Below are positions 27,339-30,199 of a DNA stretch of 62,604 nt, one piece after another (the first letter of the stretch is position 1; the number at the start of each line of letters is the position of its first letter). The DNA is from Gammaproteobacteria bacterium (lineage in GTDB: Bacteria > Pseudomonadota > Gammaproteobacteria > GCA-001735895), in assembly GCA_030066085.1 (NCBI GenBank), contig JASJCI010000007.1, forward strand, positions 92,363-154,966. Reading direction: 5' to 3'. The position numbers and the translations under genes are program-made. The notes under the pieces were generated by a model. That model saw nothing but the letters and a program-made list of their open reading frames with translations, searched no databases and was not told the DNA's origin.

Positions 27339-27980
27339 TCAGTTGCCGACCGGTCGCGATACGAAGGCCAGGTCGGCGCGGCCGAACAGCGTGCTCGACG
27401 CGTCGAATATCAGCTCCTCGACCCGATCGAGATCGATGTCGAGCTCGCGCACCCCGGTTTCCCGCCACTCGCCGGGCAGGTCGATTTGCGCATTATCGCT
27501 GACGAAGACGAGCAGCAATTCGTCGCCGAAGGGCGGTACGATCACGTAACTCATCGGTTCCTCGAGCGACGGAAACGGCATATCGCTGCCTGCCGGGAAC
27601 CAGTGATTCGACATCTCCGCGTTGGGTAACATCTGCAGCAGGTTGCCCTCGGTATCGAGATAAAACAGGTAGACGTATCCCTCGCGCTCCAGCGACAGCG
27701 AGAAGAATATGAACTCGCCGTCGTAAACCTCGCGCCGATCGTCGGGTGCGATGGCAAGACTCAGATCCACGCGTTCCGGCTCGGCCAGCGCCGCCAGCAG
27801 CATATTGCCGGCATCGTCGTCCGCCAGCCAGCCGGCTGATGCTGTGCGCACACCCCGATCGCTTGCACGCTCGATGTCGCCGGCCTGTACCACGCCGATG
27901 GCGGCCAGCAGGCAGATCAAAACGGTCAGTACGGACAGACCGTTGCGGTTGGCGTCGAATCGGCAGGGAGAGAAAAACAT
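27339..27980 (-). CDS. DUF4384 domain periplasmic/exported protein
   Basis: 213 residues. An N-terminal hydrophobic segment ('VLTVLICLLAAIGVVQAGD') reads as a signal peptide with cleavage near AQA/GD. The core has the DUF4384 pattern 'EFIFFSLSLEREGYVYLFYLDTEGNLLQMLPN...' and 'PMSYVIVPPFGDELLLVFVS'. The domain is common in secreted or outer-membrane proteins and is often found beside FlgO- or TolB-like modules; its function is unknown. The gene precedes the cytochrome c-DsbC fusion in reverse order on the same strand (62 bp gap), so co-transcription is possible. Confidence 0.8.
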   Translation of the reverse strand: MFFSPCRFDANRNGLSVLTVLICLLAAIGVVQAGDIERASDRGVRTASAGWLADDDAGNMLLAALAEPERVDLSLAIAPDDRREVYDGEFIFFSLSLEREGYVYLFYLDTEGNLLQMLPNAEMSNHWFPAGSDMPFPSLEEPMSYVIVPPFGDELLLVFVSDNAQIDLPGEWRETGVRELDIDLDRVEELIFDASSTLFGRADLAFVSRPVGN

Positions 27981-28042: not shown

Positions 28043-29143
28043 CTAGCGCTGCAGTAGCTGGATCAATTCGGTCGCGGGCCGATAGCCTTCGATCTTCTCG
28101 CCGCTTTCCAGGAACAGCGCCGGGGTACCGGCAATGCCGAGCCGGCTACCGGCCCGGTATCCCGCGTCCACCTGCGCCGCAGCCGCGCAGTCACCCGGCG
28201 GCAGGCTGTCGTAGCGCTCGTTCTTGGCATCGGTCAGCGCCTGCCGACGGTCATCGGCGCACCAGACCGAGCGCAGGGTGGCATAACCGGGCCCGGACTC
28301 GCCCCCGCGCGGGAACGGCAGGTAACGCACCGCGATGCCGGCCTGCTGCAGTTGCGGCACCTCGGCATGCAGCTGCTGGCAAAACGGGCAGGACGTATCG
28401 GTAAACACGGTCAGCGTCGCCCGGCGCTCGCCGGCCGGCGCGTATTCGACCACCTCGGCGTCGTCGAATTGCGCCAGCGTATCGATCACGGTTACGCGCC
28501 GCGACAGCTCGGTCAGGTTGCGCCCGCCCTCGAGGTCGATCAGGTCGCCGCGCAGCGCATACCTGCCGCCACCGAGCAGGTAGATGAACTGGTTGCCAAG
28601 CTGCACCTGCCAGACGTCGTCCAGCGGCATTTCGCTGACGTCGTCGAACGGCACGTCGCCGATGCGGTTGCGCAGGTGACGCGTCAGGTGACGCTCGTTG
28701 GCGACCACCACGTCGGTCAGCGACGGCAGCGTGGTGACCTCGAAATTTTTAGCCCAGCGAGCGTAAATCTCGTCCGGCCACTGCGACTGGAAAAACGCGA
28801 TGATGCTGTCGATCTGCGCGCCGTTCAGCCGACCCTCGAAGCCCGGCATCACGCCGCCGAGCTGTTGTCCCCCCTCGCGGATCGTGCGCCGCAAGACGTC
28901 CATGTCGTGGTGCCAGGTATGCGCGCTGCCGTTCAGCGGCGGCGGCGGGTAGTTACCGTTGGCGTCACGGGTTTTCCAGTCCGGCGTGGCTTCGCCGTTG
29001 ACGCCGTGACAAACCGCGCAGTTCCGCTGGTACAGCGGCTCACCGGCACGCACCTGCTGGTCGCTGTACCAGCGCTCGCTGGCTACGGCAGGCGCCAGGG
29101 TCAGGCACAGTAAACAGGTGCCAACTAACCTTGCTAGTTTCAT
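28043..29143 (-). CDS. Cytochrome c - DsbC-like disulfide isomerase fusion protein
   Basis: 366 residues from the ATG at 29143, chosen because a Sec signal peptide ('LVGTCLLCLTLAPAVASE') starts there. Residues ~30-125 are a monohaem cytochrome c: CAVCH at 42-46 and the distal Met in 'GGVMPGFEG' (Met99). Residues ~130-215 resemble the DsbC linker/dimerisation region ('VPFDDVSEMPLDDVWQVQLG'). Residues ~240-366 are a DsbC/thioredoxin-fold domain with CPFC (252-255) in 'FTDTSCPFCQQLH', a second Cys pair (295 and 319) matching DsbC's structural disulfide, and the cis-Pro in 'GIAGTPALFLESG'. The combination suggests a periplasmic thiol-redox enzyme able to exchange electrons with a cytochrome chain. 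It lies in a cytochrome cluster. Confidence 0.88.
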   Translation of the reverse strand: MKLARLVGTCLLCLTLAPAVASERWYSDQQVRAGEPLYQRNCAVCHGVNGEATPDWKTRDANGNYPPPPLNGSAHTWHHDMDVLRRTIREGGQQLGGVMPGFEGRLNGAQIDSIIAFFQSQWPDEIYARWAKNFEVTTLPSLTDVVVANERHLTRHLRNRIGDVPFDDVSEMPLDDVWQVQLGNQFIYLLGGGRYALRGDLIDLEGGRNLTELSRRVTVIDTLAQFDDAEVVEYAPAGERRATLTVFTDTSCPFCQQLHAEVPQLQQAGIAVRYLPFPRGGESGPGYATLRSVWCADDRRQALTDAKNERYDSLPPGDCAAAAQVDAGYRAGSRLGIAGTPALFLESGEKIEGYRPATELIQLLQR

Positions 29144-29154
29144 TTCGCGGTCCT

Positions 29155-29538
29155 TCAATAAAGATCTTTCTGCTGCTGGTAGTAGCGGATAAAAGCTATC
29201 ACCCGTTCCGTTTTGCCGGGTGTCATGGCAGGGACCGGCGGCATGTCGCCAAAGTTCCAGTGATGCTGGCGCACGCCTTCGAGAACCGCGCGATAAAACG
29301 TACCGTCGTCGTGGTGCGAAGGCTTGTAATAGTGATGCACCAGCGGCGGGCCCTGGTCGCTGCCGTCCAGCCCGCTGCCATGACAGCCGCTGCAATACTT
29401 CTCGTACAGCAGCTGCCCACGCGACAGCTCGAGGGGAATCTCGACCGATTCGGCAGCGCTGGCCATCGGGCTGCCATAAAGGCAGGCGGCGAGCGCCGGC
29501 AGCCGCAGGCAGCGGATTAGCGAGCGCAATTCGAACAT
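29155..29538 (-). CDS. Small monohaem cytochrome c
   Basis: 127 residues from the ATG at 29538; an upstream start at 29574 would add 12 residues. A signal peptide ('LPALAACLYGSPMASAAE') is followed by 'GQLLYEKYCSGCHGSGLDGSDQGPPLV' (haem-binding CSGCH at 49-53). A probable distal Met lies in 'NFGDMPPVPAMT', then a C-terminal helix. It is immediately upstream (12 bp) of the cytochrome-DsbC fusion on the same strand, so both are probably made together. It should be a soluble periplasmic electron carrier; the donor and acceptor are unknown. Confidence 0.88.
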   Translation of the reverse strand: MFELRSLIRCLRLPALAACLYGSPMASAAESVEIPLELSRGQLLYEKYCSGCHGSGLDGSDQGPPLVHHYYKPSHHDDGTFYRAVLEGVRQHHWNFGDMPPVPAMTPGKTERVIAFIRYYQQQKDLY

Positions 29539-29710: not shown

Positions 29711-30199
29711 ATGTCAGCCAGAACAATCCTGTCGTTCCCCCGCGGTCGCGCTTTACTGCTCGTAACAGCCCTCGCCGCGACCTGCCCGGCGGGCCAGGCT
29801 GTTTACGCCCACGAGGAAGCTACCGGCGTGGTCAAGGAACGCATGGACACGATGAAACAGCTGGGTAAACGCATGAAAACCCTGAAGTCGCTGGTGCGCA
29901 GTTCGAGCGCGTACGATGCGACGCGGGTCGCCAGCCTCGCGGGCGAGATCCGCGGGATATCGGACCAGGTCGAGTCCGGCTTCCCCGCGGGCAGCATCGA
30001 GCATCCATCCGAGGCCCTGCCGGCCATCTGGGAAAACTGGGAGCGCTTCGTGGAACTGATCGACGCCATGAAAACCGAATCGGAGAAGCTCGGTGAAGCT
30101 GCCCGCGACAGCGACCAGCGCGCTGCGCTGAAACAATTCGCGGCGCTGGGCAAGACCTGCCGCGGCTGTCATACCGACTTCCGCCAGAAAAAAGACTGA
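29711..30199 (+). CDS. Cytochrome c' / class II cytochrome c
   Basis: 162 residues with a signal peptide ending near 'AGQAVYAHEE'. The mature part is a four-helix-bundle class II cytochrome: long amphipathic helices, and the haem-binding CRGCH (150-154) close to the C-terminus ('GKTCRGCHTDFRQKKD'), as in cytochrome c' and c556. These bind NO or act as electron carriers. Divergent from the minus-strand cytochromes and 11 bp upstream of the dihaem cytochrome, with which it likely forms an operon. Confidence 0.88.
   Translation: MSARTILSFPRGRALLLVTALAATCPAGQAVYAHEEATGVVKERMDTMKQLGKRMKTLKSLVRSSSAYDATRVASLAGEIRGISDQVESGFPAGSIEHPSEALPAIWENWERFVELIDAMKTESEKLGEAARDSDQRAALKQFAALGKTCRGCHTDFRQKKD

Follow-up and report, generated by a model that had tools for sequence, protein, structure and literature searches.

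A recurrent fusion of cytochrome c and DsbC-type domains, with copper-type genes near part of its relatives

Why should one polypeptide carry both a haem attachment site and the active site of a disulfide isomerase? The question is raised by a gene on the minus strand of a stretch of 62,604 nucleotides from a gammaproteobacterium (the whole stretch is called the window below). A sequence-only reading of this DNA had described a signal peptide, a CxxCH haem site, a distal Met, a DsbC-like linker, a CPFC site and a second Cys pair in a single open reading frame, and had proposed that haem and disulfide are directly coupled in a one-protein redox relay. The coordinates and motifs are present as described and the Pfam domains agree with them. 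The features of the gene and its surroundings are:

28043..29143, minus strand: cytochrome c-DsbC fusion gene, 366 aa (open reading frame and motifs read; Pfam domains; 43 further distinct three-domain relatives)
29078..29143, minus strand: signal peptide, residues ~1-22 (read from the sequence; pLDDT <50 at residues 1-6 and 8-21)
28751..29074, minus strand: class I cytochrome c domain, residues 24-131 (Pfam PF13442 and PF00034)
29006..29020, minus strand: haem attachment motif CAVCH, residues 42-46 (C42, C45 and H46 in 44/44 three-domain fusions)
28847..28849, minus strand: Met99, presumed distal haem ligand (kept in 44/44 three-domain fusions)
28691..28750, minus strand: tether between haem domain and DsbC_N, residues ~132-151 (variable length; pLDDT <50 at 137-149)
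28508..28702, minus strand: DsbC_N dimerisation domain, residues 148-212 (Pfam PF10411, E 3e-11)
28052..28456, minus strand: DsbC-type thioredoxin domain, residues 230-364 (Pfam PF13098; superposition on Salmonella DsbC 4ilf_A)
28379..28390, minus strand: active-site CPFC, residues 252-255 (both Cys in 44/44 three-domain fusions)
28187..28261, minus strand: stretch with the second Cys pair, Cys295 and Cys319 (42/42 and 41/41, respectively, of the relatives reaching these columns)
29155..29538, minus strand: small cytochrome c directly upstream with a gap of 11 nt, presumed operon (Pfam Cytochrom_C, E 7e-9)
29711..30199, plus strand: divergent cytochrome c' gene (Pfam PF01322, E 8e-29; recurs at a few relative loci)
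27339..27980, minus strand: DUF4384 gene, downstream on the strand of the fusion (Pfam)

The N-terminal half is assigned to the class I cytochromes c because PF13442 and PF00034 both score above their cut-offs; the Cytochrome_CBB3 match covers residues 30-117 (E 4e-12, above the curated Pfam cut-off). The middle part is matched by DsbC_N with 43.4 bits against a cut-off of 25, and the C-terminal part by Thioredoxin_2 at residues 237-364 (E 1e-16, also above the curated cut-off), and this thioredoxin domain has the CxxC, the presumed cis-Pro (residue 341) and the second Cys pair. The score against the NCBIfam DsbC equivalog, 114.2 bits, is below the cut-off of 215, and the protein is therefore regarded as a fusion with a DsbC-type module and not as a plain DsbC. 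The ATG of the gene is preceded by AAGGA, which resembles a ribosome binding site.

The best sequence relatives of the fusion among solved structures are DsbC proteins (E 3e-30), while the haem part alone finds CcoP (E 7e-7) and the cytochrome domains of nitrite reductases. An AlphaFold2 model based on 35 aligned sequences has a mean pLDDT of 83.5 and a pTM of 0.55; the structural matches obtained with this full-length model span mainly residues 170-366, and the thioredoxin half superimposes on Salmonella DsbC (4ilf_A) with Z 22.2 and an rmsd of 1.6 over 149 residues. The orientation of the domains in the model is uncertain at this pTM. Residues 137-149 of the tether have a pLDDT below 50, and the tether segment between two reference columns varies from 19 to 34 aa across the 44 fusions; there is thus no sign of a fixed geometry between the haem and CPFC.

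The sequence-only reading had suggested a survey of homologues for joint conservation of the two redox sites. A collection of relatives, for which one scan kept the best 80 of 559 stretches, gives at least 55 distinct fused proteins including that of the window once identical or contained sequences are merged: 44 with the order cytochrome, DsbC_N and thioredoxin domain, eight with cytochrome and DsbC_N, and three in which DsbC_N is doubled. It should be noted that contig ends cut a few of the 44 (for example L036, L037, L113 and L118), that L036 and L037, both from the same genome, could be fragments of a single gene, and that one of the eight (L040) is also cut by a contig end. C42, C45, H46, M99, C252 and C255 are found in 43/43 three-domain relatives as well as in the window protein, so haem motif, Met and CxxC are kept together in all 44 three-domain fusions and the survey bears out the joint conservation. 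With 44 distinct three-domain fusions (55 fused proteins) we can rule out that the fusion is due to chance, a chimeric contig or a frameshift artefact.

Seven relatives have the haem domain and DsbC_N without a thioredoxin domain. These complete genes are found at L043:7682-8371, L044:8080-8790, L047:7172-7846, L048:7586-8356, L049:7798-8490, L039:4117-5067 and L041:2722-3447. No remnant of a thioredoxin domain was found beside the seven genes, the weak tblastn matches (best E 0.25) lying elsewhere or being at chance level, and sequencing error was rejected as the cause of the missing domain since no remnant adjoins in any of the seven loci. The proteins are perhaps dimeric cytochromes. In L043, L044 and L047 the gene is followed, after 108-182 bp, by two DUF1538 genes and then by PII-like and CBS genes. 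Two DsbC_N domains in tandem are found at L045:7845-9248, L046:5270-6727 and L042:1-1233. In the last of these, which is cut by a contig end, SSVSS replaces the active site and both active-site cysteines are lost. Since relatives without a working thioredoxin site exist, the haem half can be kept in the absence of such a site.

Another type of fusion was met at L035:5660-6475, where the N-terminal part of the protein resembles the F510_1955 glycosylhydrolase family (below cut-off) and the C-terminal end is another small cytochrome c. A similar protein is encoded at L088:9239-10162, inside a row of copper-type genes. The F510_1955-like proteins ending in a cytochrome c are a second kind of cytochrome fusion.

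How common is the architecture, and did it arise once? Some part of the query fusion is matched in 119/143 related genomes. In a profile search of the class, sorted by score, near full-profile matches were found in 5/369 genomes (G000, G010 with two, G097, G233 and G328) and matches to some part of the profile in 264/369, mostly standalone DsbC, both counts being among the matches listed; the fusion is rare in the class. In the phylum the cytochrome domain is found at E up to 1e-18 in 36/398 genomes, and among the 39 phylum loci none apart from the window's own has a DsbC domain in frame with the cytochrome. The named relatives among the best 80 of 559 stretches are uncultured Gammaproteobacteria or Proteobacteria, the Olavius algarvensis Gamma 3 endosymbiont and a Chromatiales bacterium. 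No relative of the fusion was found on viral contigs. Among plasmids 2826 records matched, one place reaching a query coverage of 80% with 24% identity, and no three-domain match is evident among the 20 matches listed.

A tree of the DsbC part was made from 71 rows, 44 fused and 27 unfused, after 12 of 83 rows had been dropped (L076 for a contig end, L050, L159 and L179 for long branches, and eight similar Pseudomonas sequences). The clade of the window holds 18 rows with support 100/95 and the neighbouring clade eight with support 96/83. Fused and unfused forms interleave on this tree and alternate within one bacterial family, and the fused state takes five changes. A single origin of the fusion was rejected: holding all fusions together on the 71-row tree lowers lnL by 257 (p-AU 2e-33). 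As far as can be read from the sequences on the DsbC-domain tree, the fusion has been gained or lost repeatedly, gain and loss being indistinguishable. The tree of the cytochrome domain, with 108 columns for 113 rows, has little resolution.

Fused and unfused forms also have a chromosomal place in common, with the genes for a TrxB-like reductase, ftsK, lolA, rarA, DUF938, dsbC or the fusion, and sdhCDA. At seven loci of six genomes the fusion replaces DsbC at this native place (FtsK, RarA, SdhA), and in one genome, G016 (96% complete), the fusion at the native place is the sole match to the query. In the genome of the window the native place is occupied by an unfused DsbC (L086), 48% identical to the fused copy, and the fusion is an extra gene elsewhere. 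The same genome has DsbB and, on contig C35 (the window is on contig C38), an open frame of 849 aa with its sole DsbD_TM match. With DsbB and a DsbD-type gene both present we rejected the idea that the haem is needed to replace one of them; given these genes and the unfused DsbC, the haem need not replace Dsb partners.

The gene next to the fusion had been described as another small cytochrome c, and this was confirmed by the Cytochrom_C match; it ends 11 nt before the ATG of the fusion. A relative of the small cytochrome c lies upstream of the fusion in 18/18 loci of the window's clade, the window included. At 14/18 clade loci the small cytochrome c has upstream of it a gene for a small Cys-rich exported protein with YRPPI at its end (L053:5404-5739, minus strand, and equivalents), and the members tried gave no family match better than chance. 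The divergent cytochrome c' gene recurs near the cytochrome loci of the relatives L039, L052, L065 and L066 and may therefore belong to the system of the fusion. The DUF4384 gene has no counterpart beside the other fusions scanned and is for this reason left outside the proposed system.

The copper-type context of related fusions had no part in the sequence-only reading. As copper-type markers we counted multicopper oxidase, CopB, a CopI-like protein, DUF411, a metal ATPase or CcdA within 12 kb of the fusion. Such markers are found near 22/47 loci of fusions with a thioredoxin domain, in an uncontrolled tally in which several loci are short, three have only an ATPase and one has only CcdA. In the clade of the window a hand tally gave a copper-type gene within 12 kb at 11/18 loci, or 10/18 without the locus having only an ATPase, and five loci of the neighbouring clade of eight have copper-type genes. 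Directly downstream of the fusion, six loci of the window's clade have a CopI-like cupredoxin and three a multicopper oxidase; the cupredoxin member tested against NCBIfam CopI gave E 2e-31 and 109 bits, which does not reach the cut-off of 200. DUF411 stands directly beside the fusions of L046, L127 and L176, and a CcdA-type gene adjoins the fusion in L035, L068 and L077 of the neighbouring clade. The row in L068 reads CopA, CopB, Met-rich protein, SHOCT, small protein, VTT, CcdA-type DsbD_TM, fusion and metal ATPase. Met-rich small proteins occur in such rows (e.g. L068:6310-6825) and could possibly bind copper. At the window locus itself no copper marker was found within 12 kb; the genome has a DUF411 gene on another contig and no match to CopB. 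The fusions at the native dsbC place have a copper marker at 0/7 loci.

The unfused relatives of the cytochrome domain were compared with controls, which were cytochrome c loci of the same genomes, hand-chosen, one per genome, from the matches listed. A multicopper oxidase, CopB or DUF411 gene is found within 6 kb of 22/39 unfused cytochrome-relative loci and of 2/34 controls (Fisher p 3e-6), the P-type ATPase having been dropped as a marker after the controls had been seen (16/34); with the ATPase the counts are 29/39 and 16/34. The ATPase is probably common among the controls because many of these cytochromes are CcoP-like and lie by CcoI-like pumps. A less favourable picture is given by a further 11 loci with unfused cytochromes, which come from the family of the window and from other families of its class: a multicopper oxidase, CopB or DUF411 gene is present at 2/11, and the count is 3/11 if the ATPase is taken as a marker too. 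The cytochrome domain was also found in 279 plasmid records, of which three loci were examined. The annotation of two Roseobacteraceae plasmids places the unfused cytochrome in a row with multicopper oxidase, DUF411, DsbE, TlpA, SCO and CcdA; on an Arcobacter plasmid genes for CopB, multicopper oxidase, DUF411 and a metal ATPase are found no more than 6 kb from it.

What could the protein do? We tentatively propose, giving the proposal slightly less than an even chance, a periplasmic DsbC-type disulfide isomerase with a tethered cytochrome c, belonging to a family many members of which would act in copper or thiol stress. We infer the periplasmic location, the haem attachment, the dimer, the direction of electron flow and the copper role. 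The protein would probably be a homodimer with one tethered mono-haem cytochrome c per subunit. Its DsbC half would repair wrong disulfides of the kind that arise when copper oxidises periplasmic thiols, and would be recharged by DsbD or a CcdA-type reductase. The cytochrome half would take up single electrons, most likely from Cu(I) or from a copper protein encoded in the same operon, with the dithiol as a possible further source, and from the haem they would most likely go to the small cytochrome c of the neighbouring gene and further to the respiratory chain. According to PMC9040851, which cites Hiniker 2005, loss of DsbC makes E. coli sensitive to copper in air, and PMC5524982 and PMC8900818 state that ScsC isomerases act in copper resistance. 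The DsbC half would thus have a ready role in copper stress. Disulfide repair and one-electron transfer may serve one and the same stress, since both halves are conserved, changes between fused and unfused states are repeated and copper-type neighbours are found in part of the relatives. The frequent neighbourhood of copper-resistance genes suggests that the joint haem carrier and disulfide repair enzyme of some uncultured marine bacteria is a combined tool against copper damage.

The relay put forward in the sequence-only reading goes further. With its direction corrected to run from thiol to haem, the tethered haem would oxidise the DsbC dithiol by single electrons, and protein thiols would drain to the respiratory chain without DsbB and quinone. 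Typical potentials are near -0.13 V for DsbC and well above 0 V for a His/Met cytochrome c, and flow from haem to disulfide is therefore unlikely, whereas flow from thiol to haem would be downhill and is possible. The part of the relay that stands is the joint retention of both redox sites in 44/44 three-domain fusions, and it is in favour of a coupling that five changes of the fused state are required by the tree of the DsbC part and that the adjacent small cytochrome c offers a possible exit in 18/18 clade loci. The coupling itself fares less well: the tether is variable in length and modelled with low confidence, seven relatives retain the haem although they have no thioredoxin domain, another retains it despite the loss of both active-site cysteines, and the genome has DsbB besides its DsbD-type gene and DsbC. 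Furthermore, an isomerase must stay reduced, which a drain to haem opposes, and a two-electron chemistry would have to be matched with a one-electron carrier. We regard the relay as unlikely. The two halves could instead be tied together for shared dose and place without any exchange of electrons. This would agree with the separability of the parts in relatives (cytochrome with DsbC_N and no thioredoxin domain, cytochrome alone, DsbC alone), with the interleaving of fused and unfused states on the tree and with plasmids on which cytochrome and thiol-disulfide genes are adjacent yet unfused; it leaves the presence of DsbC_N on cytochromes without thioredoxin domain unexplained, unless DsbC_N is a dimeriser, and we consider it rather doubtful.

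The cytochrome c in the next gene allows one further explanation, in which the DsbC half is a maturation factor that reduces the CxxCH disulfide of apocytochromes, its own and that of the neighbour. In three relatives the fusion adjoins a CcdA-type gene, and members of this family also take part in the maturation of cytochromes. Reduction of the apocytochrome CxxCH is a task known for CcmG-type proteins and not for dimers of the DsbC_N type, no other maturation gene was found among the representative neighbours run through Pfam, and a haem domain inside the factor itself would be unexplained; we find this highly improbable. The isomerase with a tethered cytochrome, acting in copper or thiol stress, is the reading that we prefer.

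If the relay were true, the respiratory chain would directly set the thiol chemistry of the periplasm without DsbB and quinone. Because fused and unfused forms alternate and natural variants without the thioredoxin domain or the cysteines exist, nature offers in this group the proteins with which a coupling of haem and disulfide chemistry could be tested. The same group could show for what reason a cytochrome c is maintained next to thiol-disulfide proteins in copper operons. In the titles and abstract starts listed for open-licence papers no description of a fusion between a DsbC-type isomerase and cytochrome c was found, and no paper was found in that literature that combines DsbC with a "cytochrome c domain". 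Both kinds of protein are known; the fusion is a variant of them that recurs and for which those titles and abstract starts gave no earlier description.

The closest known system is DsbC itself (1eej, 4ilf, 4npb), which gives the best sequence and structure matches and has the DsbC_N domain, thioredoxin fold, CxxC, cis-Pro and second Cys pair of the fusion, but has no N-terminal cytochrome c. ScsC has the architecture of a thioredoxin domain without DsbC_N; this is not matched by the window protein, in which DsbC_N is present. Like the fusion, ScsC is a thioredoxin-fold isomerase and, as stated in PMC5524982 and PMC8900818, serves copper resistance with a DsbD-like partner. It differs in having no haem and another N-terminal region, and no DsbD-like partner of the scsB type was found at the window locus, CcdA-type neighbours being found only in three relatives. 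In the SCO-cytochrome c fusion proteins, reportedly described by Banci and colleagues in 2011, a cytochrome c is joined to a copper protein with a thioredoxin fold. SCO has no DsbC_N, has CxxxC and a His instead of CxxC, and is a copper chaperone and not an isomerase; SCO1/SenC has no Pfam match in the window protein up to E 0.1. The copper nitrite reductases with a tethered cytochrome c (2zoo, 3ziy) have, like the fusion, a related cytochrome c domain on a redox enzyme; in them, however, it is a copper enzyme that carries the cytochrome, and carries it C-terminally. The unfused cytochromes c of copper operons, for example on Sulfitobacter and Leisingera plasmids, are separate genes with thiol-disulfide partners of the TlpA/DsbE type and not DsbC, but their domains are 41-45% identical to that of the fusion and they are annotated beside DUF411, DsbE, TlpA, SCO and CcdA.
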